NCBI GenBank assembly: GCA_007859835.1 | Contig: SJPJ01000001.1 | Coordinates: 1,450,482 to 1,486,967, forward strand | DNA length: 36,486 nucleotides | Direction of reading: 5' to 3' | From: Novipirellula herctigrandis | GTDB lineage: Bacteria > Planctomycetota > Planctomycetia > Pirellulales > Pirellulaceae | Shown here: positions 1,589 through 35,301 of the stretch, in pieces | Layout of the letters: each line of letters starts with the position of its first letter | How positions within the stretch are numbered: position 1 is the first letter of the stretch | Program-made: the position numbers and the translations under genes | Notes under the pieces: generated by a model | Database searches by the model: none | Seen by the model: the letters and a program-made list of their open reading frames with translations, nothing else | Told to the model about the DNA's origin: nothing

Positions 1589-1591
1589 ATG

Positions 1592-1598: not shown

Positions 1599-1612
1599 AT
1601 TGCGCTACCGTT

Positions 1613-3600: not shown

Positions 3601-5046
3601 ATGAAATCTGACGACCAACCTTATCGAAACGGCAAAAAGAAGAAGCGTGAGGTGAGCGCTAGCGAGATTTTGCAGCGACAACCACCGTTTGATCTTGAGG
3701 CGGAAATGGGAATCCTAGGCAGTATCTTGCTGCTACCGATTGTCTGTGACGACATCGCCAGCTTGCTGCCCGACGACTTCTACGACGAAGCAAACAAGAA
3801 GATCTACGAACATCTTCGCGAGATGCACGACCAGGGCGAAAAGATCGACATCACGCTACTCGTTTCGCGGCTTCGAACCGCCGGTGATTACGAAAAGGTT
3901 GGCGGCGCGCCTTACTTAGCACGACTCAGTGGCGCCGTCCCTAACGCCGCTCACGCCGTCTATTACGCTGGGATCGTTACCGAAAAAGCGGTCTATCGAA
4001 AATTGATCGAATCAAGCACCGAGATCCTCCGTGACTCGTACGATCAAGCAAGCGACGCGAGAGAATTGTGCGCCCAAGCGGAACAAAAAGTGTTCGCGAT
4101 CATGGACGGGCGCAGCGGCAATTCGGTCAGCAGTTTGAATGACGTGCTGCATCAGGCGATGGACCGCATGGAAGCTCGCATGAGCGGCGAACATACCGAT
4201 GGAGGTTGCGAAACGGGCTTCACCGATTTTGATTCGATGACCGGTGGACTGCACAACGGTGAATTGATCATCTTGGCTGCTCGGCCGTCGATGGGTAAAA
4301 CGGCCCTGGCGATGAACATTGGCGAAGAAGCGTCGATTGTTCAACGAACCCCCGTCTTGTTCGTTTCACTCGAAATGTCAGGAATCGAGTTGGCCGACCG
4401 TATGTTGTGTTCGCTGGCACGAGTCAACGGCCATAAACTTCGCAATGGAACGATTTCGTCCGACGACCGCGAACGACTGATTGGCAAAGCGAACGAAATT
4501 AGCGAGGCGCCGCTGTTCGTGGATGACTCACCAAGCCGAACGGTCAGCGAAATTGCTGCGGGTGCTCGGCGGATCAAACGTCGCGAAGGAAGCTTAGGGC
4601 TGATCGTGATTGACTATCTGCAACTCATTGAACCCGATAACTCGCGTGACCCGCGTCAGGAGCAGGTCGCAAAGATCGCCCGACGTTTGAAGGGATTGGC
4701 TCGTGAGTTGGAAGTGCCGCTACTCTGCTTGTCACAACTGAACCGACAAGCCGAAGACAGCAAAGATCACCGTCCACGGTTGAGCCATTTGCGAGAATCG
4801 GGTGCGATTGAGCAGGATGCCGATGTTGTGATGTTTGTGCACCGTGAAGAGTATTACCATCGCGGCGAAGAGAAGGCACAATATGCAGGTCAAGCCGAAA
4901 TCATCATTGCGAAACAACGTAACGGGCCGATTGGTGATGTGGCGCTAACCTGGGAAGGCGATTTCACAAAGTTCAGCGACCGAGCCCCTGACCGCCACAG
5001 CGAATTCGACGACTACGCCGAATTCAACAGTCCCGCTGGATTTTAG
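3601..5046 (+). CDS. dnaB: Replicative DNA helicase DnaB
   Basis: A 481-residue hexameric 5'-3' replicative helicase of normal length. The N-terminal DnaB domain (residues ~25-130) starts with QPPFDLEAEMGILGSILL, the typical entry into this domain. The RecA-like C-terminal domain has Walker A ARPSMGKTALA (Lys233), the following SLEMSGIELADRML, Walker B LGLIVIDYLQLI (Asp near 338), the LSQLNRQ motif and LRESGAIEQDADVVMFVHREEYY near the arginine-finger region. No intein is present. The start ATG has no obvious Shine-Dalgarno, but no in-frame upstream alternative looks better. Placement right after dnaA pairs the initiator with the helicase it would help load. Confidence 0.97.
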   Translation: MKSDDQPYRNGKKKKREVSASEILQRQPPFDLEAEMGILGSILLLPIVCDDIASLLPDDFYDEANKKIYEHLREMHDQGEKIDITLLVSRLRTAGDYEKVGGAPYLARLSGAVPNAAHAVYYAGIVTEKAVYRKLIESSTEILRDSYDQASDARELCAQAEQKVFAIMDGRSGNSVSSLNDVLHQAMDRMEARMSGEHTDGGCETGFTDFDSMTGGLHNGELIILAARPSMGKTALAMNIGEEASIVQRTPVLFVSLEMSGIELADRMLCSLARVNGHKLRNGTISSDDRERLIGKANEISEAPLFVDDSPSRTVSEIAAGARRIKRREGSLGLIVIDYLQLIEPDNSRDPRQEQVAKIARRLKGLARELEVPLLCLSQLNRQAEDSKDHRPRLSHLRESGAIEQDADVVMFVHREEYYHRGEEKAQYAGQAEIIIAKQRNGPIGDVALTWEGDFTKFSDRAPDRHSEFDDYAEFNSPAGF

Positions 5047-5702: not shown

Positions 5703-5792
5703 CGATAGGGCAATCGCGGCCAAAGTTGCAGCCCAGACTTGATATTTCAAAATCGGGTTTGCAGCTTCGGTTACAATGTGGGATGTCCGTCC

Positions 5793-5852
5793 ACTGCCTA
5801 CCAATCTACTGCCTACCAATCTACTGCCTACCAATCTACTGCCTACCAAACT
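5793..5852 (+). repeat. 15-bp tandem repeat x4 next to a start region
   Basis: Four units of ACTGCCTACCAATCT at 5793, 5808, 5823 and 5838, the last ending AAACT instead of ATCT. The block ends 16 bp before the ATG at 5869. If an upstream ATG at 5776 were used it would encode PTNLL repeats, which would push the signal peptide inside the protein, so I read it as noncoding 5' leader. Confidence 0.88.
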
Positions 5853-5868
5853 GTCTCGCGGGTTCATC

Positions 5869-7272
5869 ATGAGTGACACCATCGATCGGCTTTCAAGTTT
5901 CAGATTGTGCCTTCGGATCACGCTTGTCGTCTGCCTTCTTTCAACGAACACGTTGGCAGTGGAACCGTGCCGCATTGAGGTTGTGGATCAAAGCAACGGA
6001 TGGCCAGTTCCGATGGTCGAACTTGAAACGACGAATCATATTCGATTCGTCACCGACAACGCCGGATTAGTTGCATTTGATTTACCCGAGCTCATGAACA
6101 CGCCAACTTGGTTGCATGTGCGAGGCCATGGGTACTCCGTCGCACCGGATGGATTCGGATTTCGCGGCGTTCGCATTATTCCTGTTCCTGGAAAGACATT
6201 TCGCATCGAAGTCCAGCGAGAACTTGCCGCCAAACGCCTCGGACGCTTGACGGGCGGTGGCCTGTTTAGCGAGAGCCAAAAGTTGGGCGAAGCAAACGAC
6301 TGGAGAGAACAAAACTTGCTCGGCTGTGACAGTGTCCAGAACGCGATTTTCAACGAAAAACTATTCTGGCTGTGGGGCGATACAACGCTGGCGGGCTACC
6401 CACTAGGCCGCTTCCATTCAATCGCTGCCACTACCGCGCAAACTCCGTTACCGTCCCTTGTTCCACCCATTGGACTACGATTTGATTACTTCAACGATGA
6501 TCAAGGGACGCCTCGCGATATCGCTCGCATGCCTGGCGACGGTCCGACTTGGTTGTTCGGAATGGTTAGTTTGCCGGACCAAAACGGCCAACACCGCCTA
6601 GGCGCAACTTACTCGAAGATCAAAGGCCCGCTGACCGAATACGAAAAAGGGCTTTGCGTTTGGAATGAGCAAACCGAGCAATTTGATCGCCACCGCGTGA
6701 TTTGGAAAATGTCCGAGCAAGACCCCTCGTCTCCGTTAATGCCGCACGGGCACAGCGTCTTTTGGACGGACCAACATGGCGAGCAGTGGGTTTTGTTTGG
6801 AGATCCATTTCCCACAATTCGTTGTCGTGCGACGTTTGAAGATTGGTCCACACCCAAGCGGTGGGAATCGATCGACACCACCAAGACGGTCGAAATGGCG
6901 AATTCAAAGCAAACCATCCGGCCGCATCGCGGGGCCATTGCGTTTAACGCCTATCGCGATTGTTGGGTAACCATTTTTACCCAAACATCGGGCAATCGAT
7001 CCGAGCTTGGAGAAATATGGTATGCCGAATCAACGTCGCCCATGGGACCTTGGTCCGCTGCGATCAAAGTCGTTACACACGACAAGTACACCTTCTACAA
7101 CCCCCAGATCCACGCTGAATGGGTAGACAAAAACTCGCCCGTTCTACTCTTCGAAGGCACCTACACTTCGACGTTCTCCAAAGCCAAAACGCCAACCCCG
7201 CGTTATGACTACAACCAAATACTATACCGATTGGACCTGGACACACTGCGGAATTCGAAAGACGCTCCCTAA
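5869..7272 (+). CDS. Exported beta-propeller protein, glycosidase-like (DUF4185-like)
   Basis: A protein of 467 residues from the ATG at 5869. I chose this start because it gives a signal peptide (RLSSFRLCLRITLVVCLLSTNTLAV), whereas the longer frame from 5776 translates the tandem repeat. Residues ~30-100 (CRIEVVDQSNGWPVPMVEL) look like a carboxypeptidase-regulatory-like beta sandwich. The remainder has propeller-type blades with WLWGDTTLAGYPLG, HGHSVFWTDQHGEQWVLFGD, WGPW-type MGPWSAAI and FYNPQIHAEWVD near the end, as in five-bladed propellers related to GH43/GH32 and DUF4185. I do not see a certain catalytic triad, so it may bind or cleave a glycan. It is convergent with the GH127 gene and begins the carbohydrate island. 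Confidence 0.65.
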   Translation: MSDTIDRLSSFRLCLRITLVVCLLSTNTLAVEPCRIEVVDQSNGWPVPMVELETTNHIRFVTDNAGLVAFDLPELMNTPTWLHVRGHGYSVAPDGFGFRGVRIIPVPGKTFRIEVQRELAAKRLGRLTGGGLFSESQKLGEANDWREQNLLGCDSVQNAIFNEKLFWLWGDTTLAGYPLGRFHSIAATTAQTPLPSLVPPIGLRFDYFNDDQGTPRDIARMPGDGPTWLFGMVSLPDQNGQHRLGATYSKIKGPLTEYEKGLCVWNEQTEQFDRHRVIWKMSEQDPSSPLMPHGHSVFWTDQHGEQWVLFGDPFPTIRCRATFEDWSTPKRWESIDTTKTVEMANSKQTIRPHRGAIAFNAYRDCWVTIFTQTSGNRSELGEIWYAESTSPMGPWSAAIKVVTHDKYTFYNPQIHAEWVDKNSPVLLFEGTYTSTFSKAKTPTPRYDYNQILYRLDLDTLRNSKDAP

Positions 7273-17667: not shown

Positions 17668-20600
17668 TTACGGTGATGACGAACTAGGTTCGATGGTGAC
17701 CGCCATTACCACCGGTGCCGATTGATCGGTACCTTTGATGAAATCGATTGTCTCGATTTTCTCACTTCGTTTCGGTTCAATCTTCAAATAGCGAAGTTGT
17801 TGACCCTGAGGAAAACCAAAAGCAAATTCGCTCTCAGGAACATCATTGCGACGCACGTAATCGGCGAAGTGGACACCATTGAGCAATTCATGATCTTCGG
17901 ATCTTCCGTCGGCATAGCGAAAGCGGACAATCATTGAAACGGTCGGTTCGGTATCGAAGGGATATCCCCAACCGGCGACTCCACTAAGCAGATGAATGGC
18001 CTTTGCCCCCGCATTGCACGGCAACGAAACTTCCTTTGGCATCCGTGAAGCTAAAGGGCCGTTGGGGCTATGCAACAAGATCAAATTTGGACGTGATTCG
18101 CCATGTGGGTCGGCCAATTGAAACGGAACGCCGTTGAATTGCTTGGGTCCCCAATCCGGGAACACAAACCGATCCGGACCATCGTCATGAAACAACCCTT
18201 TGGTGCTGATGGCGTTCGCGTAACGGCCGATTGAAATCGGAACGTACCGGCTCTTGAATGTCAGAAATTCCAACAAATCGGTCATGCCATCCACACTGAT
18301 CGACCCTTCATAACCTTCGGGCATCAAGGACTTGGGTGACATGACCCATTCCTCAATTCCTTCTCGTAGCACATTTTGCTTCACTCCCGCCGAATCGACT
18401 AATTCAATCGCCGTCTTCGATTCTGATTGAAGCATCCCCGTTAAGACCATGCCATCGTCCGTCAAAACCGTGTAAGTCCGAAAATTACCCTCCACCGTTC
18501 GACTGGGATCAAGGATATGAATTAACAATTCACTCTTTGGACTAAGGGCCATCCCAGTCAGATCGGGGCCGATCCGGACGCCCAATTCGCCGTGCACATG
18601 GCATTTGGCGCATTCATCCATAAAGACTCGTTGACCTTTCATTCGGTCGCCGGAATGTTGCGTGGACATCTGGTATCGATCAAGGACGATCTTGCGGTCA
18701 TAAGTTGGCAACGTCCCTTCTAAATTCAACAGACGCTCAGCCAACTGCCGAATGGTTTCGTCGGGATGCGCTATCAAAGCCTGTTGTTGCTCAAGCGTTA
18801 GTGTGTCAAGCAAAATGTCACCCTCTATTGCGGCACGCAGCATGACCATCGTTAACGGAGGACGTTTAAGCATCAAAGAAAACGCAGCCTGTTTGACCGA
18901 TGGAGTCAACGCTCCGAGCCGTCCGATGAGTTCGTCACCAAGCCCATCCCAACGACATCCTTCCAAAGCATTGATCAAGCCGATGGCGACGGATGGCGAG
19001 GTGCGTGGCGTGACTTCGTCGAGCAGACTGACGACGACTTCGCGATCGCTGCTAACAAAATCAATGGCTTTCACGGCAGCGGCAATACGCTGCTCATCGG
19101 GCATCGTCTGATCATGAACCGTGCGGAGCATACCGTCGATCAATTCTTGCCCATAGCGTGAAAACTTATTACTGCCCCATCCAGTGGCAAGTTTGATCAG
19201 CCCGCCTCTTGAACCGGCAGGGATACGATCAAGAATCGATAGCAACTTAACATCGGTCATGACGTCAAGTTTGACAGCAGACTCGTGACCCGATGCCGCC
19301 AAAAAACCGTCGATGACCGCACTCAAGATCGGCGGATCCACAGCATTCAAATTCGCTAACAACAGGGCTTGGTCGTTTGCGTCATCACCGTGAGCATGAT
19401 GCTCGGCAACACGACGGATGATTTCCAAGGCGGCCTCAGGCAACTTCGTTTGATTCGCCAAGGAACGCAAAACCGAGCTACTATATTGTGCCGCTGCACT
19501 GGTTAATGCATCGGGAATCCAGCGGTCCGTCATATCCGTATGACTTAGCATCATGCCCATTAGCTCCTCACCGGCCCGATCTCTTGCCATTCGCCCATCG
19601 GCCGCCTTGGTCGCTTCACTGGAGGCCAAATCCGACAATGCCAACAATGCGGCCAAACGCACGACGCGATTGGGATCCCTTAGTAAATTACTGTTGAAGA
19701 TCTCAGCGACCGACTGCGTGCGCGTTGGCAACACCTGTGCTGCGACACGGCGAACACCCGCCGACGGATGCTTGAGCGCCCGGTAAACCGCACGATTTGA
19801 TGCGTCATGCGAACCATCAAGAAGCCCCAAGCCGTGAAGTGTCCACAGTGCATGAATGGCACCTACGTTCAACCCAATGGCATCGGTAGTATGATTGTCA
19901 ACTAAATCGATCAACGAATCGGTAATGTCCCGCACGCCTCGCTCGACAAGCAAACGTTGGGCATGTTTGCGAACAAGCATGGTTGGATGAGCGAGTGAGG
20001 CAACCCGCTGCTTGACCGTTGCACGCTCCAAATCCGGCACTTTTGAGGAATCATTTATTCGATTAGGAGCGTGTAATGGATCAGCAACCACACGATAAAT
20101 CCGTGCCAATTCCTTATCACGCAGAGTCGTTTCGTAAGCGCGTCCCTTACCCTCCTCGAAACCCTCGGCGGCCCGATTATGTTGCAGAATGTAGTTGTAC
20201 CAATCAATGACCCAAACTTGGCCATCTGGACCAACTTCGGCCATTGTCGGCGAAGTCCATTCATCGTCACTCGCAAGCAAGTTAAACGGATTCGTGGAAC
20301 GAAAATCGCTACCACGCTGTTTCAAAACAAACGCGCCGGACAAGTGCCCGGTGGGACCATTGACAAATGCAACACGATTCCAGTACTCCTCGGGGTACGC
20401 GCGAGCCGTATATAACGCATGCCCCGTTGCGGACGTGTAACCGCCTTGCCAATCCACCTGACGAACTTTGTCCGTAATTGGGGAAAAGTCACTCGTGTCG
20501 GCAATCGAAGACAATGTGAGCGAGGGCATCCAACCGCGGACCCGTTCGTAATACCGATTGGCAATCGGCATGTAGACGCTCGGGTTTCCATTGGCCGTCG

Positions 20601-22137
20601 AACCAAAGACAAGCCCTTCTTCGCTAAACCCCAATCCCCATGTGTTGTTGTTGGTTGACCGAATAAATTCAATCTCCGATCCATCCGGGCGCATCCGAAA
20701 GAACCCCATGCGGAACGATTCTTGCGGCTCACCGTTGGCGATCGGCTGCGAGTAGTTGTAACCCTGCGTACCCCAAATCCAATTATCGTGGCCATACTGA
20801 AAGTTACTCACCCCCGCATGGGTATCTTCCATGTTCCAATTCGAAACTAGCACGCTGCGAACATCGGCACGTCCGTCTCCGTTAGTATCCTGTAAAAACA
20901 GCGTTTGCGTGCCGTTTTGCACGATTGCCCCGCCACGCGAAAATGCGATAGCACTTGGAATGCTTAGATTGTCGGCAAACAGCGTAAACTTATCCGCCCG
21001 GCCATCCTTATCGGTGTCCTCGCAAATACGAATCCGGTCATTACCGAAACCATCTTCGTGAAGCTCATTGGGATAGTCCTCGGTTTCAGCAACCCACAAT
21101 CGCCCCGATGCGTCCCATGCCATGCAAATGGGTTTGCCATGAAGATCGGGCTCCGAGGCAAACAATTCGACGTGAAATCCCTTTGGAACAACAAGATGCT
21201 TGATCGATTCTTCGGCGGGCAAAGCCTGTTGCATCGTGCTTTGCCTTTCGTCCAACGACGCAAATTCCGATGCCGAGTTGTAGACGGGAAGTTCACGTCC
21301 GACATCCACGTATTCAAACGGTTTCAAATCATTCGCCAACGAGTTCATTTCCGGAATCGGAAAAGGAGCGTCGGCGACGTAGACCCCCGCATCCTGAGGG
21401 TCTTCACCAGCAGCCCACCGGATGCCCCGCTCAACCAAGTTTTGAAATCCCGGATGAGTCCATGTTCGTTGATCGTGTCCCGACGCGGTATAAAAAACGC
21501 GACCCTTTCCGTGTGTACGAATCCAGGTCCATGGTTCGCGTCCTTCCTGGTCAACGCGGTACTCCAAAATCGTCCGATTCTTTTCGTTGAATTGATCATG
21601 CACATAGGTCTCGTCCCAACTTTCGAAACCTGCGTAACCTTTCATCACTTCGTGATCGGGTTTGTCGATCAGCGCACGAAATACACCTGAATCATGCCGC
21701 ACGAATTCCGCTCCGACTAACGCACCAAACGGAGGCGCATTGCGGAAGCAAGCACTAGCACAATGCAGCGGGACAAACCCACCACCGCCGGCGACGTAAC
21801 CCAACAACGCACTAAGTTGATCAGGGGAAATTTCGTCGATGTCCGCGTAGAGCAAAAACACATCGTATTGGGCGAGTGTGCCGGGATTCAAATCCGCAAC
21901 ACGTTCGGTATAAGTCAGTTCGATCCCCCGGCCTGAAAGCACAGAACGCAATTCGCCGAAGCGTGATTCAGGTTGATGGCTACGTCCGGGGTCCCCCAAA
22001 AACAGCACCTCCAACCCCTCAGCCATTACACACGAGAAGAAGCCACTGCTAGCACCAAACAACACAAAGGCCAATGCCCCAAAAACGAATTCTCGGAACA
22101 GCGATCGGATGCGACTCGCAATAGGGGTGGAATTCAT
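17668..22137 (-). CDS. ThuA + PVC-type dehydrogenase + HEAT + cytochrome c fusion
   Basis: About 1489 residues from the ATG at 22137; a GTG in frame lies just before it. A signal peptide (FREFVFGALAFVLFGASSGF) is followed by a ThuA/GATase-like domain (~40-265: LEVLFLGDPGRSHQ, GGGGFVPLHCASACFRN, RVFYTASGHDQRTW). Next is a PVC-type membrane-bound dehydrogenase propeller (~320-690: GFHVELFASEPDL, MAWDASGRLWVAETEDYPNE, DTDKDGRADKFTLFADNL). Alpha-helical HEAT-like repeats follow (~720-1100), then a single haem-c domain with CAKCH at about 1177-1181 and the IGPDLTGMA and HILDPSRTVEGNF motifs. A galactose-binding-like tail ends the protein. Planctomycetes carry many such fusions; sugar dehydrogenation or epimer handling is plausible, with electrons leaving through the haem. 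Divergent from the XylR-type regulator. Confidence 0.87.
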   Translation of the reverse strand: MNSTPIASRIRSLFREFVFGALAFVLFGASSGFFSCVMAEGLEVLFLGDPGRSHQPESRFGELRSVLSGRGIELTYTERVADLNPGTLAQYDVFLLYADIDEISPDQLSALLGYVAGGGGFVPLHCASACFRNAPPFGALVGAEFVRHDSGVFRALIDKPDHEVMKGYAGFESWDETYVHDQFNEKNRTILEYRVDQEGREPWTWIRTHGKGRVFYTASGHDQRTWTHPGFQNLVERGIRWAAGEDPQDAGVYVADAPFPIPEMNSLANDLKPFEYVDVGRELPVYNSASEFASLDERQSTMQQALPAEESIKHLVVPKGFHVELFASEPDLHGKPICMAWDASGRLWVAETEDYPNELHEDGFGNDRIRICEDTDKDGRADKFTLFADNLSIPSAIAFSRGGAIVQNGTQTLFLQDTNGDGRADVRSVLVSNWNMEDTHAGVSNFQYGHDNWIWGTQGYNYSQPIANGEPQESFRMGFFRMRPDGSEIEFIRSTNNNTWGLGFSEEGLVFGSTANGNPSVYMPIANRYYERVRGWMPSLTLSSIADTSDFSPITDKVRQVDWQGGYTSATGHALYTARAYPEEYWNRVAFVNGPTGHLSGAFVLKQRGSDFRSTNPFNLLASDDEWTSPTMAEVGPDGQVWVIDWYNYILQHNRAAEGFEEGKGRAYETTLRDKELARIYRVVADPLHAPNRINDSSKVPDLERATVKQRVASLAHPTMLVRKHAQRLLVERGVRDITDSLIDLVDNHTTDAIGLNVGAIHALWTLHGLGLLDGSHDASNRAVYRALKHPSAGVRRVAAQVLPTRTQSVAEIFNSNLLRDPNRVVRLAALLALSDLASSEATKAADGRMARDRAGEELMGMMLSHTDMTDRWIPDALTSAAAQYSSSVLRSLANQTKLPEAALEIIRRVAEHHAHGDDANDQALLLANLNAVDPPILSAVIDGFLAASGHESAVKLDVMTDVKLLSILDRIPAGSRGGLIKLATGWGSNKFSRYGQELIDGMLRTVHDQTMPDEQRIAAAVKAIDFVSSDREVVVSLLDEVTPRTSPSVAIGLINALEGCRWDGLGDELIGRLGALTPSVKQAAFSLMLKRPPLTMVMLRAAIEGDILLDTLTLEQQQALIAHPDETIRQLAERLLNLEGTLPTYDRKIVLDRYQMSTQHSGDRMKGQRVFMDECAKCHVHGELGVRIGPDLTGMALSPKSELLIHILDPSRTVEGNFRTYTVLTDDGMVLTGMLQSESKTAIELVDSAGVKQNVLREGIEEWVMSPKSLMPEGYEGSISVDGMTDLLEFLTFKSRYVPISIGRYANAISTKGLFHDDGPDRFVFPDWGPKQFNGVPFQLADPHGESRPNLILLHSPNGPLASRMPKEVSLPCNAGAKAIHLLSGVAGWGYPFDTEPTVSMIVRFRYADGRSEDHELLNGVHFADYVRRNDVPESEFAFGFPQGQQLRYLKIEPKRSEKIETIDFIKGTDQSAPVVMAVTIEPSSSSP

Positions 22138-22309
22138 CACGGGGTCTTAGTTATCGAGCGGGGATCGATACCCACACTCGGGAGCCATGTCTAAGAGAAC
22201 AGCACACGAACAAATCACCCACACCCCCCCTAAAGGGGTTGCACCGGCAAAAAAAATAGCCCATTCTACTGCTCAAAATAATAGCTTTAGAGCATTGTCC
22301 CACTGCGCC

Positions 22310-27012: not shown

Positions 27013-27072
27013 GCGCAGTGCCCGAAATCTTTGCGCAGTGCCCGAAATCATAGCGCAGTGCCTGCAATTGCG
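27013..27072 (+). repeat. 20-bp tandem repeat x3 running into a gene's 3' end
   Basis: GCGCAGTGCCCGAAATC plus three variable bases (27013-27032, 27033-27052), then a diverged third unit GCGCAGTGCCTGCAATTGCG (27053-27072). The stop codon of the minus-strand phytase-like gene (27048-27050) lies in the second unit, and its last codons lie in the third unit. The gene's C-terminus therefore appears to have been formed or extended by the repeat. Confidence 0.85.
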
Positions 27073-28322
27073 AAACAATAGATCTCGCTTTTGACGTTGA
27101 CGTCGAAGTCGTTGTCACAGCAAACCCACAGCGTCCGGCGACCATCTTCGAGTGGTTTTCCCCAGCACAACCCTTCGGGTTTTTCGACCGCCAAAGCGCC
27201 GCCAATCCCAAACGCCGGATCGAGCAAATCAATCAGCAACGTTTTGGTTGCCGGCAATACATTCGCTGGGATTTCTTCCGACGGCATCGACTCCAACTGG
27301 CACACGTCCGTTGCCTTTGCTGTATCAATCAAGTAGATCCGTTTGCATTTCGCCGCTTCGCCCACTTGGCCGTCTCGTTCGATTACCAAGAAACGCGTTT
27401 CATCGACTGCCAAGATCTCACTCGTCCCTGACGCGAAACTGTCGAGCCGATAATCAAATTCGTGTTCCACCATCTCTTCGCCGTCGTCGTGGTCCTTCGC
27501 CGTTGCGTCGAGAATGATACCGCGGCAATTTAGCCCGAAGCACTTATGGTCTTCGATCTTTCCGTCTTGAATCAGTGGGCTTTGCAGCATTGAAACAAAA
27601 CGCTTACCGCTGGGCGTCACCGCGATTCCTTCCAACCCACGATTTGGGAAGGTACCTCGACGGTAGGTGCCATCCTCGGTCAATTGAATACGGAATCGGC
27701 CGGGGATAGCCAATTCGGTTTCAATTTGTCCCGATGGGTCGACAATCACAATGTGCGGCCCGTATTCGTCACTCATCAGCAACGCCCCACCGGGAAGACA
27801 ACGTATCCCTTCCGGATCCATCGCAGTCCAATCATGCGAATCACCCATCGCGTGCAGGTCGTTGTCGTGAGCCGCCAACGATCCAACGACTTGCGATCCT
27901 GCTTGGGATGTCAACAATCGAGTGGCGAGCAAATCGAATTGAATCTGTTTCGTTGCCGGATCAACTTTTAAATTAACTTCGTGAAATCGACATGGATAGG
28001 AAACCGCGCCGTCACCCGCACCTCGATCCGAAAGCAAGAAAAAACGATCTTTATCGCCGCTGTAATCCATGCCCGAGAAACCGCCGAACTGGTTCGACAT
28101 CGAACCGTCCTCTAATTTACCGTGCAACCCACTTGCATCCACTGCGTGTCCATCCAACCGTACCACGCCGATCAATTCAATCGGCTTAGGATGCACCAAT
28201 CGACGCGATTCGCTACTGACCAATATCGTTTCTTCGGCCGATACGTTTGCAGTTTGCATGCTGACAAATGACGCGCAGCAGAATACAAGGACTGCAAACC
28301 GAAACGTTGATCGCTGCGTCAT
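27048..28322 (-). CDS. Exported phytase/esterase-like beta-propeller protein
   Basis: A 424-residue protein with a signal peptide (FRFAVLVFCCASFVSMQTANVSA). The body matches the phytase-like / esterase-like family of propeller proteins: GGFSGMDYSGDKDRFFLLSDRG, DPEGIRCLPGGALLMSDEYGPHI, FPNRGLEGIAVTPSGKRFVSMLQS and FLVIERDGQVGEAAKCKRIYLID are the typical blade motifs with acidic calcium- or metal-binding residues. The likely location is the periplasm; the substrate could be a phosphate ester, but this is inference. It is divergent from the electron-transfer cassette across 240 bp. The very end (CFAIAGTAL) overlaps a tandem repeat, so the true last residues in relatives may differ. Confidence 0.8.
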   Translation of the reverse strand: MTQRSTFRFAVLVFCCASFVSMQTANVSAEETILVSSESRRLVHPKPIELIGVVRLDGHAVDASGLHGKLEDGSMSNQFGGFSGMDYSGDKDRFFLLSDRGAGDGAVSYPCRFHEVNLKVDPATKQIQFDLLATRLLTSQAGSQVVGSLAAHDNDLHAMGDSHDWTAMDPEGIRCLPGGALLMSDEYGPHIVIVDPSGQIETELAIPGRFRIQLTEDGTYRRGTFPNRGLEGIAVTPSGKRFVSMLQSPLIQDGKIEDHKCFGLNCRGIILDATAKDHDDGEEMVEHEFDYRLDSFASGTSEILAVDETRFLVIERDGQVGEAAKCKRIYLIDTAKATDVCQLESMPSEEIPANVLPATKTLLIDLLDPAFGIGGALAVEKPEGLCWGKPLEDGRRTLWVCCDNDFDVNVKSEIYCFAIAGTAL

Positions 28323-28562: not shown

Positions 28563-29981
28563 ATGAAACACTCACCACTGGCCGTAGTTTTTCCTGCCTC
28601 ACTATCGGCTCTATGCGTTCTTCTATTCCTCAGCTGGAATGCGTTTGCTCCGACGAGCCAAATGGCTCGCCGCAAGCCGGGATTGGATGGAACGCCTCCC
28701 TCGGCAGCCAATTCGGATACCCGCGACCTCATCGCCGTCGGCGTGGTTGATGGTCCAGGCACCCGTTCAACGGTCGCAGGATCGTGGACCTCATTTCGGG
28801 GTGAAAACAACGATGCCATCTCAACGGATCCAACGAAATTAGCACGTTCATTTCCCTCGGCCGATGGGCCCCCGATTGTTTGGGAAATCGAGGTCGAAGA
28901 GGGCTACGCGGCGGCGGCAATTCGTGACGGTTGTGTCTACCTGATCGATTACGACGCCGACGAACAACTCGATACGCTTCGCTGCTTATCGCTCGACGAT
29001 GGCCAGGAAATTTGGCACAACAGCTATCCCGCACAAGTTTCCCCTAACCATGGAATGACTCGCACCATTCCCGCGATCGCGGGCGATTCGGTCGTCACAA
29101 TCGGCCCCCGATGCCACGTCGCATGCTGGGATGCCGAAACGGGAGAGTGCCGTTGGCTGTTCAGCATGGTCGAGCGATTCGGCAGCGAAGAGCGCCAGTG
29201 GTACAGCGGACAATGCCCGCTGATTGACGACGACCGCGTCATCCTTGCCCCCTGCGGCAAAGACGCGATGATGGTTGCCATCGATCTACACAGTGGCGAC
29301 GAAGTATGGCGAACACCAAACCGACATGAATGGAAGATGTCGCACGGTTCGATCTTACCCATGGAATTCGAACAAACACCGATGTACGTCTATTGTGGCA
29401 CGGGCGGAACCGCGGGAGTCTCGGCAAAGGACGGTACGCTACTTTGGGATGAAACATCGTGGGACGAACATTTTGCGACAAGCCCCTCACCGATTGGTTT
29501 GCCCAACAACCAAGTCTTTTTGTGCAGTGGTTACGACTCCATTGGTGCAATGTTCTTGAACATTAGCAAAGAAGGCGACAAATTCATCACCACGCCAGGC
29601 GAGAATCTCGACCGAAAGCAATTCAATTCCGAACAACAAACACCGGTCCTGGTTGATAACCATCTATTTGGCATTCGGAAACACCGGGGCGGCCAATTGG
29701 TTTGTATGGATTTAGAGGGAAATGAAATTTGGAACAGCGGCCGAGACAAGTTTGGCCACGGCCCTTACATGATCGCCGACAACCTAATCTTGACGCTTTC
29801 CGACCGAGGCCGACTTGTTGCTGCCGAAGCAACTACCGAAGCCTACCACCCCGTGTGGGAAACCGAAGTGTTCGAACATGGCAACGAAGCGTGGGGCCCG
29901 ATGGCAATCGCGTCTGGCCGACTAATTGTGCGTGACTTAACTCGAGTCGCCTGTTTGGATTTACGAAGCGAGAACCCATAG
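28563..29981 (+). CDS. Anchored PQQ-like (BamB-type) beta-propeller protein, cassette gene 1
   Basis: A 472-residue protein. The N-terminal hydrophobic stretch (LAVVFPASLSALCVLLFLSW, ~5-25) is a signal anchor. The propeller begins with the Planctomycete-typical SWTSFRGENNDAIST, followed by blade motifs GQEIWHNSYPAQVSPNHGMT, TGECRWLFSMVERFGSE, SGDEVWRTPNRHEWKMSHGS and LEGNEIWNSGRDKFGHGPYM. These are PQQ-like/BamB blades. I see no CxxCH and no recognisable quinoprotein alcohol dehydrogenase active-site set, and it is shorter than methanol dehydrogenase (~600). So it may be a binding scaffold or an unusual dehydrogenase. It is followed 10 bp later by the NHL gene, and the whole unit runs to 35301 on the + strand. 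Confidence 0.85.
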   Translation: MKHSPLAVVFPASLSALCVLLFLSWNAFAPTSQMARRKPGLDGTPPSAANSDTRDLIAVGVVDGPGTRSTVAGSWTSFRGENNDAISTDPTKLARSFPSADGPPIVWEIEVEEGYAAAAIRDGCVYLIDYDADEQLDTLRCLSLDDGQEIWHNSYPAQVSPNHGMTRTIPAIAGDSVVTIGPRCHVACWDAETGECRWLFSMVERFGSEERQWYSGQCPLIDDDRVILAPCGKDAMMVAIDLHSGDEVWRTPNRHEWKMSHGSILPMEFEQTPMYVYCGTGGTAGVSAKDGTLLWDETSWDEHFATSPSPIGLPNNQVFLCSGYDSIGAMFLNISKEGDKFITTPGENLDRKQFNSEQQTPVLVDNHLFGIRKHRGGQLVCMDLEGNEIWNSGRDKFGHGPYMIADNLILTLSDRGRLVAAEATTEAYHPVWETEVFEHGNEAWGPMAIASGRLIVRDLTRVACLDLRSENP

Positions 29982-29991
29982 ACGCATTCCC

Positions 29992-31140
29992 ATGTCCAAC
30001 AAAACCGCCCCAAACCCTCACACCCCGAGCCAAAACACCCCGAGTCGAACCGGGGCACCATCCGACTCGTCGCCCATTCAACACCCCAAGGGAACGGCAT
30101 CGATCGTCTTTTGGTCGATCGCCGTCGTCGTCGCTTTGTTAGCGTTATACGCCGTTTTGCAAGTCGACAATTGGGGCGACAGTGGCAACAACCTGCCGAC
30201 TCGGTTTGGGCTAGACACGGCAAAACTAGCCGCAGTCGACCCGGCGCTTGTCAACTACGCCGAAACCCAACAATATCCCATTGCAATGCAAAGCGTTCGA
30301 GGAATCGCTTCGTTACCCGACGGCGGGTTTGTCGTCGCTGGGGATAAAACCATCCAACGATTTAGCAGGGATGGAGAACCGACCGAGTCCATTTCATGTG
30401 CCGACGAACCGATATGCGTCACCGTCGCAGGCGACGACCACGTGATGGCAGGACACCTGTTCGTCGGATTCGTCGCTCGCATTGACGTTTTCGATACTCA
30501 AGGCCAATTGACCAGGACAATCGATGACGGATTCGATCCCCAAACTCAAATCACTTCGCTTGCCGTTCTCGAAGACTACATCTATGCCGCCGACGCGGGG
30601 AACCGCGTGATTGCTCGGTTCGCCGCCGATGGCAAACGCTTAGGTTCCATCGGCAAAGCCGATCCATCGCGAAAGATTCCTCCGTTCATTGTCCCAAGTG
30701 CCCACTTCGACATTGTCGGCTCGGACGACGGCATCTTGCGAGCGGTCAACCCTGGGGCTCGGCGGATCCAAGCATTCACACTCGACGGTGATTTGCTCGG
30801 TTCGTGGGGCAAAGCTTCGGCAGGGATCGAAGGATTTTTTGGGTGTTGCAACCCAGCGGCTTTGGCGTTGTTGCCGGACGGTCGCTTTGTCACAGCCGAA
30901 AAAGGGATCCCGCGAGTAAAAGTATACGCCGCCGATGGCACCTTTGAGTCCGTCGTCGCAACCACCGACATGCTATCCGCAAACGCTTCGTCCAGCATCG
31001 ACATACGGGACGACCATCGAGCCGACGTCTTAGACGTTGCAACGGATCCAAACGGCCGCGTCTTGGTGTTGGACCCCAACACTCGGGCTGTCCGAATTTT
31101 TGAACTGAAAACGGAAATGGTCTCAACCGATGAATCGTAA
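29992..31140 (+). CDS. Membrane-anchored NHL-type propeller with GCCNP motif, cassette gene 2
   Basis: A 382-residue protein with a Pro/Ser-rich N-terminus (a 15-bp x2 repeat encodes TPSQN TPSRT), then one transmembrane helix (SIVFWSIAVVVALLALYAVL, ~37-56) and a periplasmic six-bladed NHL-like propeller: VRGIASLPDGGFVVAGDKTIQRF, TSLAVLEDYIYAADAGNRVIARF, GILRAVNPGARRIQAFTLDGDLLGSWG and VLDVATDPNGRVLVLDPNTRAVRIF. A paired-Cys motif EGFFGCCNPAALALLPDG appears near residues 280-295, followed by VTAEKGIPRVKVYAADG. A Cys-Cys pair in an extracytoplasmic propeller could bind metal or form a disulfide. It overlaps the next gene by 11 nt. Confidence 0.83.
   Translation: MSNKTAPNPHTPSQNTPSRTGAPSDSSPIQHPKGTASIVFWSIAVVVALLALYAVLQVDNWGDSGNNLPTRFGLDTAKLAAVDPALVNYAETQQYPIAMQSVRGIASLPDGGFVVAGDKTIQRFSRDGEPTESISCADEPICVTVAGDDHVMAGHLFVGFVARIDVFDTQGQLTRTIDDGFDPQTQITSLAVLEDYIYAADAGNRVIARFAADGKRLGSIGKADPSRKIPPFIVPSAHFDIVGSDDGILRAVNPGARRIQAFTLDGDLLGSWGKASAGIEGFFGCCNPAALALLPDGRFVTAEKGIPRVKVYAADGTFESVVATTDMLSANASSSIDIRDDHRADVLDVATDPNGRVLVLDPNTRAVRIFELKTEMVSTDES
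30020..30049 (+). repeat. 15-bp tandem repeat x2 in cassette gene 2
   Basis: ACACCCCGAGCCAAA (30020-30034) and ACACCCCGAGTCGAA (30035-30049). It is in frame, encoding two TPSxx units in the cytoplasmic N-terminal tail. Confidence 0.6.
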
Positions 31141-31357
31141 TATTGACTACCGCGACTCGCGACGCGATCTTTTCGCTGCCATTTATCGGTGGTGCGTTTT
31201 GGCGGTGCTAGGCGTCATTTCCGCCTTGTTTGCGTTTCGCAATCAAAACGGGGATTGCACGCGGAAAACTCCTTGCCAACAGTGCGGTTTACTCCAACGT
31301 TGCGAACTGCCACAAGCGAACCGGACACGTACCGAATCCCAACCGAGGGAACTGTAA
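31130..31357 (+). CDS. Small membrane protein with Cys-rich tail, cassette gene 3
   Basis: A 75-residue protein. One transmembrane helix (IYRWCVLAVLGVISALFAF, ~18-36) is followed by a hydrophilic tail with four cysteines spaced C-x5-C-x2-C-x5-C (CTRKTPCQQCGLLQRC). The spacing suits a metal or iron-sulfur site. It starts 11 nt before the end of the NHL gene (ATG 31130) and its TAA at 31355-31357 shares its last A with the ATG of the ferredoxin gene, so it is fully coupled to both neighbours. This tight placement is why I treat it as real despite its size. The function is unknown. It could deliver electrons or metal to the ferredoxin, or be an assembly factor. Confidence 0.78.
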   Translation: MNRNIDYRDSRRDLFAAIYRWCVLAVLGVISALFAFRNQNGDCTRKTPCQQCGLLQRCELPQANRTRTESQPREL

Positions 31358-32100
31358 TGCCAACGGAGGACCAAAAAGATCGACGTGAATTCATGGCCGA
31401 TGCCATTCGCACTTCGGGCGTGATCGCAATCGCGGGCGGGGGTGGTTTTTTGACAGGCAAGCGAACCACTGCCGAAAACGACGGGGAGCCGATGGTATGG
31501 CAACTTGATCCCGACAAATGCACCGCCTGTGGAAACTGTGCAACCTATTGTGTGCTGGACGTTTCCGCCGTGAAGTGCTTCAACGCTTTCGACATGTGCG
31601 GTTTCTGTGATATTTGCACCGGCTATTTCGAAATGGACTATGAGTCACTCGACACCGCCGCAGAGAATCAAGCGTGTCCGACCGGTGCCATTGTGCGTAA
31701 GTTTGTGGAAGAAAAATCAGGACAACGCTTCTACGAGTACACGATCGACGAACCACTTTGCATCGGATGTGCAAAATGCGTCAAAGGGTGTGCGTTGATG
31801 AATGGATCCATGTATTTGCAGGTTGAACACGATCGATGCCTCGACTGCAACGAATGTGCGATTGCAACGGCTTGTCCAACCGAAGCGTTCTACCGAATCC
31901 CTGCCAGCCAAGCGGAAATCATGAAACGCCGGGGCGCAGCAGTTTTGAATGCTCGCGGCAACCAAATGCTGCGTACCGCTAGCGGTGACCAAGCAAAGCT
32001 CGATGAAGCGAATCAATTGCTATCTCGAACAGCGGTCCAACGTGATTGGCGAGAGCAACAAGCAAACCAAGAAAATGGCGGGAGCACCTCCGATGGTTAA
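31357..32100 (+). CDS. Tat-type four-cluster ferredoxin (NapG/MauM-like), cassette gene 4
   Basis: A protein of 247 residues from the ATG at 31357, preceded by GAGGGA at 31345 (6-nt spacer). The frame extends upstream through a GTG at 31189, but that would overlap gene 3 and hide the twin-arginine signal. DRREFMADAIRTSGVIAIAGGG (8-29) is a Tat-type signal. Four [4Fe-4S]-type motifs follow: CTACGNCATYC (55-65), C..CGFCDIC with the later CP, CIGCAKCVKGC and CLDCNECAIATACP. This is the four-cluster layout of NapG/MauM, which accepts electrons from a membrane polyferredoxin and passes them on in the periplasm. The gene overlaps the next one by 8 nt. No nitrate reductase genes are in the window. 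Confidence 0.87.
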   Translation: MPTEDQKDRREFMADAIRTSGVIAIAGGGGFLTGKRTTAENDGEPMVWQLDPDKCTACGNCATYCVLDVSAVKCFNAFDMCGFCDICTGYFEMDYESLDTAAENQACPTGAIVRKFVEEKSGQRFYEYTIDEPLCIGCAKCVKGCALMNGSMYLQVEHDRCLDCNECAIATACPTEAFYRIPASQAEIMKRRGAAVLNARGNQMLRTASGDQAKLDEANQLLSRTAVQRDWREQQANQENGGSTSDG

Positions 32101-33475
32101 GCAAGGATTGCGGAGGACTCTGAAGGCATCGATGCGTCTGAGCAGGCTGTTTGGACTCGCCGGTCTATTGATACTGGCGATGTCGCAGCTGAGTCACGCC
32201 AGCGACGTCATTCCGGTGCCGGAATTTAGCGATTACGAAGTTCCCATTTCAATGCCCGCGCCGGTGGAAAGCCCGGTATGGGAATGGCTTAACGTGGTGC
32301 TTTTGATCGGTGCGCTGTCGTTAGCGAGTTATTTTTCGATCGTCACGCGCAGTCGCCGTGGATTGTTTACGCTCGCGATTGCGTCGCTGCTTTGGTTCGG
32401 GTTTGCTCGATCAGGTTGCGTTTGTGCGATTGGAGCGACCCAGAACGTGGCATTGGCGATGTTCGATTCCAGCTATGCAATTCCCTGGACGATTGTTGCG
32501 ATTTTCATACTTCCGCTGATCTTCACTCTGTTTTTCGGTCGGACATTTTGTGCGGCCGTTTGTCCGTTGGGGGCCATACAAGAAGTGGTCGCCATTCGGC
32601 CGGTGAAGGTCCCATCGTGGCTCGACCATACGCTGGGGTTGGTTCCTTATATTTACCTCGGCTTGGCAGTTGTTTATGCCGCAACGGGAACAGCATTTAT
32701 CATTTGCCGATACGATCCCTTTGTTGCGATGTTCCGAATGAGCGGCAATGTGAACATGCTTGTTTTCGGCGGTTCGCTATTGCTTTTGGGGGTCTTTGTT
32801 GGTCGCCCCTATTGTCGTTACCTATGTCCTTATGGAGCGGTGCTTGGCGTGCTGTCAAAAGGATCGAAATGGCATGGACGAATCGCACCTGAAAAGTGCA
32901 TCCAGTGTCATCTATGCGAAAACAGTTGCCCCTACGGTGCCATCGCCACCCCGTCTTCGCCCCCACCAAAATCCGAACGAGCCAACGCGCGTCGCCGATT
33001 GGCCAAAACACTTGCGCTCGCGCCCGTGTTGGTGATTGCGGGTGTGCTAGTCGGAATGACGATTGGTACTCCGATGGCAAAGCTTGATCCAAATGTCCGA
33101 TTGGCCGAACGAATCATCCAAGAAGATGCTGGCGAAGTGGAAGGAACCACCGATGCAACCGACGCGTTTCGGAACACCGGACAACCCAAAAGTGAACTCA
33201 TCGATTTGGCGATTGGTATCCGCGATCGTTTTGGAACGATGGGGATGTTGTTCGGCGGTTGGGTTGGATTCGTGATTGGCATCAAGTTAATCTCTCTGTC
33301 GCTGCAACGAAAACGCGTCGACTATGAACCCGACCGGTCCAGGTGTGTTTCCTGTGCACGTTGCTATTGGTATTGCCCTGGTGAACAAGTGCGATTGGGG
33401 CTTGTTGGTGACGTTTCGGACTTGGTGCCATTGAACGTCGATGCAATCGAAGCGGAAAAGGCGGTTTCCAAATGA
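32093..33475 (+). CDS. Membrane polyferredoxin (NapH/MauN-like), cassette gene 5
   Basis: A 460-residue integral membrane protein. The start at 32093 has a GGGAG Shine-Dalgarno at 32080-32084 and overlaps the previous stop by 8 nt (ATGGTTAA); the frame opens at 31949. An N-terminal signal-like helix (LSRLFGLAGLLILAMSQL) is followed by about seven membrane helices. Key motifs are CVCAIGATQN, FCAAVCPLGAIQE and YCRYLCPYGAVLG (paired CxxxCP, as in NapH/NosR-type proteins), then CIQCHLCENSCPYGAI, and near the C-terminus a second ferredoxin site CVSCARCYWYCPGEQ. In NapH/MauN such proteins oxidise quinol and feed electrons to the partner ferredoxin. Ends in ATGA overlap with the next gene. Confidence 0.87.
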   Translation: MVKQGLRRTLKASMRLSRLFGLAGLLILAMSQLSHASDVIPVPEFSDYEVPISMPAPVESPVWEWLNVVLLIGALSLASYFSIVTRSRRGLFTLAIASLLWFGFARSGCVCAIGATQNVALAMFDSSYAIPWTIVAIFILPLIFTLFFGRTFCAAVCPLGAIQEVVAIRPVKVPSWLDHTLGLVPYIYLGLAVVYAATGTAFIICRYDPFVAMFRMSGNVNMLVFGGSLLLLGVFVGRPYCRYLCPYGAVLGVLSKGSKWHGRIAPEKCIQCHLCENSCPYGAIATPSSPPPKSERANARRRLAKTLALAPVLVIAGVLVGMTIGTPMAKLDPNVRLAERIIQEDAGEVEGTTDATDAFRNTGQPKSELIDLAIGIRDRFGTMGMLFGGWVGFVIGIKLISLSLQRKRVDYEPDRSRCVSCARCYWYCPGEQVRLGLVGDVSDLVPLNVDAIEAEKAVSK

Positions 33476-35301
33476 TGACGCCTCGCGATCAATACAATCT
33501 CGCTTTTCGCAGCACCATTGTTTGTGGACTGTTTGCTGCGGTGGTTGCCATAAATCTAGGTTCGGACTACCGATCACGTACGGCCAAAGACCCACTCAAT
33601 TCGGCGGAATACATCGAACTTCGGGCTCAATTACTCGAGGACCCGAAAAACGAAACGCTCCAAGAGTCGTTTCGTGCGCTCGATACTGAATTGCGAGACG
33701 CCTATTTCGACAGCCGCTCGTTCTCCTATTGGGGTGGTTGGCTGCTGCTATTGAGCACCGCCGGAACAATCGGACTCGGCAAATGGGCGGCCGTTCTGCG
33801 CCGCCGCTTGCCCGACCCCACGTTAACGTCATCCGAACGACGTGCCACCGCGGGGGAAACCGACAACCGCATCGGCCGTAACGCAGTGGGCGGTTTTGCA
33901 GGGCTCGCCGTGCTATTGGCATTCGGTTTTTTCATGGCAATCCCAAACCGATTACCGTCCCGCCCAACCGTTGGCCAAGCGGACGAAGACGCCCACTTGG
34001 CGTCATCGGACATTGAAAAAGGCGACACATCCGAACCACCATCCTCCGACGCTCTCGCGACGCAGACGGCGGAACTAACCCCATCGGCGATTCCCGAGGG
34101 ATTTCCAACCGTGGAAGAATTGGCAGCCAATTGGCCTCGCTTTCGTGGCGCCGATGGGTTGGGCATTGTGACTGAAATGGCAATGTTGACTTCGTGGAAC
34201 GTCGAAACCGGAGAGGGCATTTTATGGAAAACCGAAGTTCCGCTGCCCGGGAACAATTCACCGGTCATGTGGGGCGATCGTATTTTCCTTTCGGGTGCAA
34301 CCGAGACGACTCGCGAGGTCATGTGTTTTGACGCCGTCAGTGGCGAGTTGCTGTGGCAAAAGGCTGTGCCCGGGACTCCGGAAAGCACCGCGGAAACACC
34401 GAATGTCATGAAAGCCACTGGTTTCGCGGCACCCACCATGGCAACCGATGGACGGCGAGCGTATGCCATTTTTGCAAACGGCGACGTCGGAGCCTTTGAT
34501 TTTGAAGGGAATTTGGCTTGGTCGCGCAGTCTGGGGATCCCCAACAACGCTTACGGGCACGCCTCGTCGCTAATGACATTTGAAAACTTGCTGATCGTCC
34601 AATTCGACCAGGGGAGCGAAGGAGAGAACTTATCGCGAATATTGGCACTCAACGTCGAATCAGGTGAAACGACCTGGGAAGCACCGCGCGAAGAAGTGCC
34701 CAATTCGTGGCCCACGCCAATCCTAATTTACGTCAACGATCAACCGCAATTGCTCACATGCGGCGCGCCCAACGCGGTCGCGTATGATCCGCGCGATGGC
34801 AAAGAAATATGGCGAGCCGATTGTTTGTACGGTGACGTTGGCCCATCGCCCGTTTATGCCGACGGTATCGTGGTAACGGCAAACGAAGTTCCCGGCGTGA
34901 CTGCAATCAAGGCGGATGGAACGGGTGATGTGACCGAGACCCATATGTTATGGGATGGTTTCATGGGAGTCCCAGATTTATGCAGCCCGCTGGCGACGAA
35001 TCAAATGGTACTGCTTTTGACGTCTGATGGGCTTTTGACGTGTTACGATTTGCACGAAGGAGGCGACCCGCTATGGGAGCATGAAATCGATGCTTCGTTC
35101 TCGTCATCGCCCACGATGATCGGCGAAAACGCTTACCTGTTCGATACAGATGGCCAAGTTTTCATCGTCAAGCCAACGCTCGAGTCTTGCACGGAAGTCG
35201 GCGCAAATGATCTGGCAGAGCCCTGCGTCACCAGCCCTGCGGTAAAAAACAGCCGCCTCTACATCCGAACCGAAACACAATTGATGTGCATCGGCGAGTA
35301 A
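33472..35301 (+). CDS. Three-helix membrane-anchored PQQ-like propeller, cassette gene 6
   Basis: A 609-residue protein. The first ~165 residues contain three hydrophobic helices (TIVCGLFAAVVAINLG, GGWLLLLSTAGTIGLGKWAA, AVGGFAGLAVLLAFGFFMA). A charged linker follows, then a PQQ-like/BamB propeller from about residue 215 (LAANWPRFRGADGLG, WNVETGEGILWKTEVPLPGN, SGELLWQKAVPGTPES, FEGNLAWSRSLGIPNN, DGKEIWRADCLYGDVG, SFSSSPTMIGENAYLFDTDG). The NWPRFRG opening is shared with gene 1, so the cassette carries two related propellers. No CxxCH or other haem site is visible. It starts in an ATGA overlap with gene 5. Its propeller could be the partner of the ferredoxin, or a dehydrogenase of unknown type. 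Confidence 0.84.
   Translation: MMTPRDQYNLAFRSTIVCGLFAAVVAINLGSDYRSRTAKDPLNSAEYIELRAQLLEDPKNETLQESFRALDTELRDAYFDSRSFSYWGGWLLLLSTAGTIGLGKWAAVLRRRLPDPTLTSSERRATAGETDNRIGRNAVGGFAGLAVLLAFGFFMAIPNRLPSRPTVGQADEDAHLASSDIEKGDTSEPPSSDALATQTAELTPSAIPEGFPTVEELAANWPRFRGADGLGIVTEMAMLTSWNVETGEGILWKTEVPLPGNNSPVMWGDRIFLSGATETTREVMCFDAVSGELLWQKAVPGTPESTAETPNVMKATGFAAPTMATDGRRAYAIFANGDVGAFDFEGNLAWSRSLGIPNNAYGHASSLMTFENLLIVQFDQGSEGENLSRILALNVESGETTWEAPREEVPNSWPTPILIYVNDQPQLLTCGAPNAVAYDPRDGKEIWRADCLYGDVGPSPVYADGIVVTANEVPGVTAIKADGTGDVTETHMLWDGFMGVPDLCSPLATNQMVLLLTSDGLLTCYDLHEGGDPLWEHEIDASFSSSPTMIGENAYLFDTDGQVFIVKPTLESCTEVGANDLAEPCVTSPAVKNSRLYIRTETQLMCIGE

Follow-up and report, generated by a model that had tools for sequence, protein, structure and literature searches.

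In the electron-bifurcating enzymes of the Bfu family, NAD(H) reacts at an FMN, ferredoxin reacts at C-terminal clusters, and BfuA serves as the conduit. These enzymes are known mainly from the cytoplasmic systems of anaerobes (see also PMC9304861). According to that paper, the histidine of cluster B2 and clusters B2–B5 set the bifurcating Bfu enzymes apart from non-bifurcating relatives, and 17 BfuB clades are left unassigned. In this study, we analyzed a stretch of 36,486 nucleotides from Novipirellula herctigrandis (assembly GCA_007859835.1, contig SJPJ01000001.1, positions 1,450,482 to 1,486,967), hereafter called the window, in which six tightly packed genes on the plus strand, g1–g6, form a cassette. 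An earlier note on this DNA, made from the sequence alone, described the cassette as a quinol–ferredoxin module with propeller partners and no known terminal enzyme. In our view, the cassette is likely to supply the membrane and periplasmic parts of a complex of the Bfu type (HydABC/StnABC-like), the cytoplasmic half of which is a BfuC–BfuB fusion (BfuCB) together with a BfuA-like protein. That the cassette and the Bfu core form one system is well supported; the evidence includes linkage, unlinked co-occurrence, gene fusions, conserved ligands, and the loss of an NADPH domain. The direction of electron flow, the substrate, and bifurcation as such we infer.

Association of the cassette with a Bfu-type core

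A search with g4 returned 16 loci in genome_contigs and, at E ≤ 1e-15, 32 of the 294 genomes of the window's phylum, including the genome of the window itself (G000). The carriers in genome_contigs are records named Planctomycetota, Acidobacteria, Bacteroidetes, and Lentisphaerae, and named strains with the cassette include Bythopirellula polymerisocia and Aeoliella straminimaris. We compared 49 loci, counting the window (W) as one of them; the same genome may occur twice in this set under different names, and L050 and L051 come from one genome. The gene-order counts omit loci with too little flanking DNA and include the window, and the denominator is given with each count. For the alignments, only rows scoring ≥ 80 bits were used, and N-termini that were over-long were trimmed.

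The order of genes around g4 is conserved. Upstream, g1 was found in 37 of 43 loci and g2 in 41 of 43 (those with ≥ 3.3 kb on the left), and downstream, g5 was found in 45 of 46 loci and g6 in 28 of 41. The propeller genes are therefore not separate from g4 in most loci, and the one-system reading with propeller partners given in the earlier note is borne out. Nor did we see g4 and g5 kept only beside a known reductase: no nitrate or methylamine enzyme recurred among the flanking families inspected, although no locus-by-locus search was made, and no single substrate enzyme recurred beside the cassette in those families. Type A cassettes contain the g6 propeller; type B cassettes, in which g5 is shorter and the g6 propeller is absent, occur in some Acidobacteria, Phycisphaerae, Bythopirellula, Aeoliella, and others. 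Only g4 and g5 are visible at L070 and on the short Lentisphaerae contig L003. At seven loci (L006, L007, L063, L065, L067, L073, and L074), a recurring set of neighbors, i.e., a propeller protein, a glycosyltransferase, an ABC ATPase, and a large FtsX-type permease, stands beside the cassette in varying combinations.

Family clustering revealed two extra downstream genes in relatives that are absent from the window. The first (BfuCB) is a NuoE–NuoF fusion with a C-terminal ferredoxin domain, and the second (BfuA-like) has a NuoG-type N-terminus joined to a GltD-like part; the best PDB matches of both are StnABC-type enzymes and bifurcating hydrogenases. BfuCB occurred within 5 kb and on the same strand in 35 of the 41 loci with ≥ 4.8 kb on the right, and the BfuA-like gene was then present in 27 of the 30 loci with ≥ 7.5 kb on the right (missing from L004, L066, and L070). 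At L002, where there is too little room on the right, BfuCB and BfuA are found together upstream, on the opposite strand. The genome of the window also contains an adjacent BfuCB and BfuA-like pair (Table 1). Thus, the earlier statement that there is no known terminal enzyme holds within the window, but in relatives the cassette runs on into a Bfu-type NADH/ferredoxin core. Because of this continuation, and because the core is present in the own genome of the window about 90 kb away, NAD(H) plus ferredoxin, and not quinol alone, probably stand at one or both ends of the pathway, and the term quinol–ferredoxin module does not stand as it was worded.

The co-occurrence tests ignore relatedness; the telling cases are those in which the two halves co-occur without being linked. 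In a survey of 198 genomes of the class, the 8 genomes with g4 (E ≤ 1e-15) were also the 8 with BfuA (E ≤ 1e-40), and the halves are non-adjacent in three of these (G000, G334, and G447). In G447, g1–g2, g4–g5, and BfuCB–BfuA lie on three contigs and all are retained (no search was made for g3 or g6 elsewhere). In the fragmented and incomplete genome G089, the parts are on separate contigs and g1 is present only in part. Neither g4 nor BfuA was found in the 20 other genomes of the window's family in that survey. Across the phylum, BfuA was present in 29 of the 32 genomes with g4 and in 7 of the 262 others (Fisher 4e-30, relatedness ignored).

Gene fusions connect the same partners. In eight loci (L009–L014, L016, and L017), BfuC has an N-terminal module of two transmembrane (TM) helices that is homologous to the N-terminal module of g6 (hhalign E 8.7e-10, probability 96.5), and four hhalign controls gave E values of 0.015 to 0.19. 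Bythopirellula polymerisocia and Aeoliella straminimaris, both of type B, are among the carriers of this fusion. At L008, g5 continues in frame into a BfuC that is 48% identical over 170 residues to the BfuC of the own genome (E 9e-43). These fusions suggest that BfuC lies beside membrane proteins and, if L008 is a guide, that the C-terminus of g5 would be cytoplasmic. The distance correlations of g5 with BfuCB and BfuA were moderate (rho 0.39 and 0.48, respectively; 0 of 999 permutations), and that of g4 with BfuCB was 0.26 (2 of 999 permutations).

By the sequence features tested, the core is a member of the Bfu family, because the B2 ligands and the diagnostic histidine are kept. The fused homologue in G167, which is 62% identical to the own-genome BfuCB, contains the NuoE-type 2Fe-2S domain of BfuC (PF01257, residues 31–173) and the domains PF01512, PF10531, PF10589, and Fer4_21, which we take to be the Pfam counterparts of the InterPro criteria for BfuB. 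Those criteria are an FMN/51K domain, an SLBB domain, an NADH 4Fe-4S domain, and a C-terminal 4Fe-4S domain (InterPro list in PMC9304861). When the own-genome BfuB was aligned to 7t2r_B, all the B2 ligands were kept (C438, C476, H525, C531, and C536 in 7t2r numbering, the positions having been counted manually; the C476 position may be T in the B2 ligand criterion), and the cysteines of B1, B3, B4, and B5 were also kept, as judged by eye. H717, C722, and C727 occur in 87% of 39 BfuCB rows, incomplete rows included. The core may bifurcate electrons.

The BfuA-like protein provides a further indication. The own-genome protein aligns to StnC (8oh5_C) from 4 to 285, resumes at 450, and ends at 672, and its alignment with 9bov_A resumes at 424. 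The skipped stretch of StnC contains the NADPH-binding Rossmann domain; the protein also lacks the FdhF-like C-terminus. Most of the cluster cysteines are kept, together with K170 (counted by hand), which corresponds to the lysine ligating cluster C7 in StnC (PMC10482914), but R239 is not kept. After five of the 33 BfuA rows had been excluded because they were incomplete or trimmed (L051, L053, L058, L075, and L077), 24 of the 28 homologues judged complete, including that of the own genome, proved to be short forms of 494–591 residues that have lost the NADPH domain. The FAD fingerprint GxGPxGL is present in 18 of the 24 short proteins and not in the other 6, and the flavin may also have been lost in some of them. 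Because a Stn-like enzyme has lost its third-substrate site and gained a membrane module, this module is probably the third electron partner, in place of the NADPH site.

Properties of the cassette genes

The layout of the cassette was confirmed from the sequence of the window (Table 1). On recount, the junctions between g1 and g6 are +10, −11, −1 (TAATG), −8, and −4 nt, the same values as in the earlier note. The start codons of g4 and g5 were picked within longer frames. Scans for promoters and terminators yielded about as much as shuffled sequence.

Table 1. Positions of the cassette genes and other features; positions are those of the window unless prefixed with C1, which denotes genome coordinates. 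PQQ, pyrroloquinoline quinone; Tat, twin-arginine translocation; AF2, AlphaFold2.
Feature	Position	Strand	Description	Evidence
g1	28563-29981	+	PQQ_2/BamB-like propeller, N-terminal signal or anchor	Pfam, alignments, AF2 model, fold search
g2	29992-31140	+	NHL propeller, N-terminal TM helix at residues 38-56	Pfam, alignments, model
g3	31130-31357	+	75 aa, SRRDLF Tat-type motif, one hydrophobic segment, C-x5-C-x2-C-x5-C	
g4	31357-32100	+	Polyferredoxin, Tat-type RREFM motif, 17 Cys; NapG-like by organization only	
g5	32093-33475	+	NapH/NosR-type multi-TM iron-sulfur protein, ferredoxin motifs	
g6	33472-35301	+	N-terminal membrane module and PQQ_2-type propeller	
Left neighbor	27048-28322	−	Phytase-like gene	
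Right neighbor	from 35537		Tex N-terminal domain	
BfuCB and BfuA-like	C1:1576295-1580221	−	Adjacent pair, about 90 kb beyond g6	
2-oxoacid:ferredoxin oxidoreductase (L092)	G000:C1:1570257-1573264		Alpha and probable beta	beta by eye
RnfC matches	G000:C1:536679-537983 and 3779356-3780420			
DnaA-type gene	1589-3442		617 aa	
DnaB-type helicase	3601-5046		Follows the DnaA-type gene	
Open frame	5776-7272		498 aa, no Pfam match at E 0.001	Pfam
Multidomain protein	17668-22140		1490 aa, ThuA, DUF7133, HEAT repeats, weak cytochrome c match	

The earlier note had recognized two PQQ-like propellers and one NHL propeller, and Pfam returned the same assignment, with PQQ_2 matches in g1 (2.4e-25) and g6 (3e-24) and an NHL match in g2 (7.7e-05). 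Structure prediction, which that note had proposed for the propellers, was run on g1 and g2 (mean predicted local distance difference test scores of 82.1 and 84.5, respectively) and returned propeller-type fold neighbors. For g1, BamB, tetrathionate hydrolase, and PQQ-dependent alcohol dehydrogenase were equally near (13–16% identity), and for g2, the nearest were NHL domains; neither search fixed a function. The invariant residues of g1 include W107, W151, N162, H163, R167, W213, Y214, Q217, H261, Y324, T360, P361, R457, and D458 (15-row alignment), and several of the invariant polar or aromatic residues lie just ahead of predicted strands. In g2, the motif F-x-G-C-C-N-P is invariant (F282, G284, C285, C286, N287, and P288), as are E303, K304, and K310 (14-row alignment). 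The conservation in both looks greater than a scaffold would need, which makes g1 and g2 candidates for the true terminal enzyme. PQQ-dependent enzymes were rejected for g1 and g6, because the scores are far under the cut-offs (g1 against TIGR03075, 25.1 bits versus 480; g6 against TIGR03074, 19.7 bits versus 833) and no PqqE over the cut-off was found in the genome of the window; PQQ could be taken up from outside.

No family matched g3 in the Pfam and NCBIfam scans. A small g3-like frame with the pattern C-x3-7-C-x2-C-x5-C nevertheless occupies the same place in at least 19 of the 48 relative loci (pattern search), and all 19 counterparts contain a twin-arginine stretch, which is of the RRxF/L Tat type in most, as judged by eye. 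Because this frame and its twin-arginine stretch recur at the same place in relatives, g3 is a real gene, and the small Cys-rich membrane protein of the earlier note, with four cysteines and one hydrophobic segment, is retained. It is probably a Tat-exported iron-sulfur protein with a single cluster.

In Pfam, g4 is a 4Fe-4S ferredoxin; its 17 cysteines would suffice for about four 4Fe-4S clusters, and 16 of them are conserved at 98–100% (49-row alignment). The matches of g5 were Fer4_5 and ferredoxin in Pfam, and its top matches in NCBIfam were NosR (44.7 bits) and NapH (42.8 bits); a putative quinone site in g5 is possible. The assignment of g4 and g5 to a NapG/NapH (MauM/MauN) pair survived as a resemblance and failed as membership: g4 reached 21.7 bits against a curated cut-off of 269 for NapG/MauM, and the NapH score of g5 compares with a cut-off of 213 for NapH/MauN, so we rejected the pair as true NapGH members. 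A flavinylated NapH-like system was also rejected, because no FMN-binding domain was found in the six proteins (Pfam, E 0.1), as was a c-type cytochrome wire, because the only CxxCH found in the eight proteins searched for haem-c motifs is part of the g5 ferredoxin motif. No complex I membrane subunits were present in the Pfam matches of the scanned window genes, and no complex I subunits were present in the inspected flanking families recurring in ≥ 4 of the 49 loci.

Proposed electron path and alternatives

In the mechanism that we propose, NAD(H) and ferredoxin would exchange electrons at the flavin/Fe-S core of BfuCB, and the electrons would run through the cluster chain of the BfuA-like protein, from which the NADPH domain is gone, to the cytoplasmic ferredoxin motifs of g5, a step backed by the fusions of g5 and of the TM module to BfuC. 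From there, the electrons would cross the membrane by way of the Fe-S clusters in g5 and arrive at g4 and g3, both of Tat type, and the propellers g1, g2, and g6 may act as partner, docking site, or enzyme. Our preference for the net direction, held with slightly less than even confidence, is outward, such that NADH and reduced ferredoxin would be confurcated onto a periplasmic or membrane acceptor; the remaining weight is split between quinone as the actual third substrate and inward flow from a donor in the periplasm. The outward direction is preferred because the membrane potential favors the outward movement of negative charge and a very low-potential periplasmic donor is not needed. A bolder extension, which we regard as possible but doubtful, is that bifurcation is coupled directly to extracytoplasmic chemistry through an all-iron-sulfur transmembrane wire leading to g1 and/or the CCNP propeller g2 as a new metal- or thiol-using redox enzyme.

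RnfC scored over the cut-off in 19 of the 32 genomes with g4 and in 63 of the 262 others. This enrichment fits an active low-potential ferredoxin pool and does not indicate a direction; a role of the system as an Rnf substitute is unsupported, because RnfC is enriched, not depleted, in the genomes with g4. The genome of the window itself has one RnfC gene over the cut-off and a weaker second match. 2-oxoacid:ferredoxin oxidoreductase was rejected as a guide to direction because the family occurs in 254 of the 294 genomes at E 1e-50 (205 over the cut-off) and discriminates little. The genes for this enzyme that lie about 3–6 kb from BfuA in the own genome (Table 1) may mean nothing, given that the alpha family is so common.

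Several observations weigh against a single complex of cassette and core. BfuCB is not next door in 6 of 41 loci (W, L003, L004, L050, L066, and L070), and in the own genome the halves are distant and encoded on opposite strands, where their joint assembly is presumed. Three genomes with g4 have no BfuA match (G079, G188, and G253), and seven genomes have BfuA without g4. The g5–BfuC fusion is known from a single metagenome contig (L008). Four BfuA proteins are long (663–753 residues; L008, L009, L015, and L017), and the NADPH motif GGGNTAMD is present in L009, L015, and L017, that of L008 being long by length and spacing only. Finally, neither a TM helix nor a signal is present in g2 in 7 of 14 rows (L009–L014 and L017, all of type B), which fits a periplasmic place badly; the type B g2 may be a cytoplasmic protein or may leave the cytoplasm together with a Tat partner.

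Some of the same evidence can be read in other ways. A tenable though less probable alternative takes quinone as the third substrate, so that the complex would be a Bfu NADH/ferredoxin:quinone oxidoreductase with its quinone site in g5, and the propellers, g3, and g4 would be assembly or regulatory partners. The resemblance of g5 to NapH/NosR is in its favor, NapH being described as a putative quinone-binding subunit (PMC8238504); a precedent has been proposed in Nuo-Bfu (PMC9304861), and menaquinone is coupled with NADH and ferredoxin by EtfABCX (PMC10734219). However, the Tat-type g3 and g4 would be left without an obvious role, the cysteines of g4 are almost invariant, and no complex I pump subunit accompanies the cassette or recurs in the inspected flanking families. 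It seems rather unlikely that the flow is inward, with g1 (or g1 and g2) as a periplasmic dehydrogenase whose electrons are bifurcated to NAD+ and ferredoxin. Such a scheme would require a donor near −400 mV, and electrons moving inward oppose the membrane potential; in addition, the genome has no PqqE over the cut-off, which makes a PQQ enzyme unlikely in the absence of PQQ uptake. The invariant polar residues of g1 and g2, more than a purely structural propeller seems to need, would nonetheless suit a dehydrogenase, and known Bfu enzymes run in this manner with H2, formate, or NADPH (PMC9304861).

The NosR match of g5 and the lack of a recurrent substrate enzyme in the inspected families would also agree with a NosR-like supply of reducing power, in which NADH electrons pass outward for the upkeep or maturation of a protein in the periplasm and the Bfu core no longer bifurcates. 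We consider this improbable, given that the ligands of B2, B3, and B4, which are absent from non-bifurcating relatives (PMC9304861), are kept. Least probable is the proposal of the earlier note, a NapGH-like quinol dehydrogenase pair feeding an unidentified periplasmic acceptor with no NADH involved: g4 and g5 do resemble NapG and NapH, but the NADH core is linked to them, fused to their neighbors or to g5 itself, and found in the same genomes, all of which opposes it.

Comparison with known systems

FixABCX couples NADH and ferredoxin at the membrane, and the proteins of EtfABCX and FixABCX are not known to be related to those described here. The function of EtfABCX (PMC10734219), which likewise couples NADH and ferredoxin at the membrane, could be comparable. 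NapGH/MauMN and NosR similarly combine a multi-TM iron-sulfur protein with a Tat-type polyferredoxin, but here the partner is an NADH core and not a nitrate, methylamine, or N2O enzyme. The flavinylated NapH-like systems share the NapH-like transmembrane iron-sulfur transfer, although NuoF-like proteins are paired there with MsrQ-like, not NapH-like, systems (PMC8238504). Unlike Nuo-Bfu, neither the cassette nor the inspected recurring flanking families contained complex I membrane subunits.

Among the matches listed, we found no NapH-like module or propellers of this kind joined to a Bfu core in the open-licence literature. In a word search, NapH, NosR, and periplasm did not occur in the main text of PMC9304861, and PMC11406978, in the portions used, describes BfuABC hydrogenases and not this system. 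If our reading is true, a membrane-wired version of the Bfu enzymes extends this chemistry to the cell envelope and offers such bacteria a route to dispose of, or gain, low-potential electrons. Thanks to the natural gene fusions and the loss of the NADPH domain, the electron path can be tested directly.

The closest described relatives are the Bfu enzymes themselves. The Bfu features tested in BfuB and BfuC are common to HydABC and other Bfu enzymes (PMC9304861), and BfuB aligns with HydB, as with StnB, over its whole length, whereas the third-substrate module here consists of a NapH/NosR-like membrane protein, Tat-type ferredoxins, and propellers. In comparison with StnABC (the Sporomusa-type Nfn, or Nfn-Bfu; PDB 8oh5/8oh9, with near relatives 9bov and 9n5u), BfuCB matches StnB from end to end and has a NuoE-type domain fused in front, and the BfuA-like protein differs from StnC in having neither the NADPH-binding Rossmann domain, R239 (own genome), nor the FdhF-like C-terminus. 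To this core, the system described here adds membrane, exported iron-sulfur, and propeller partners.

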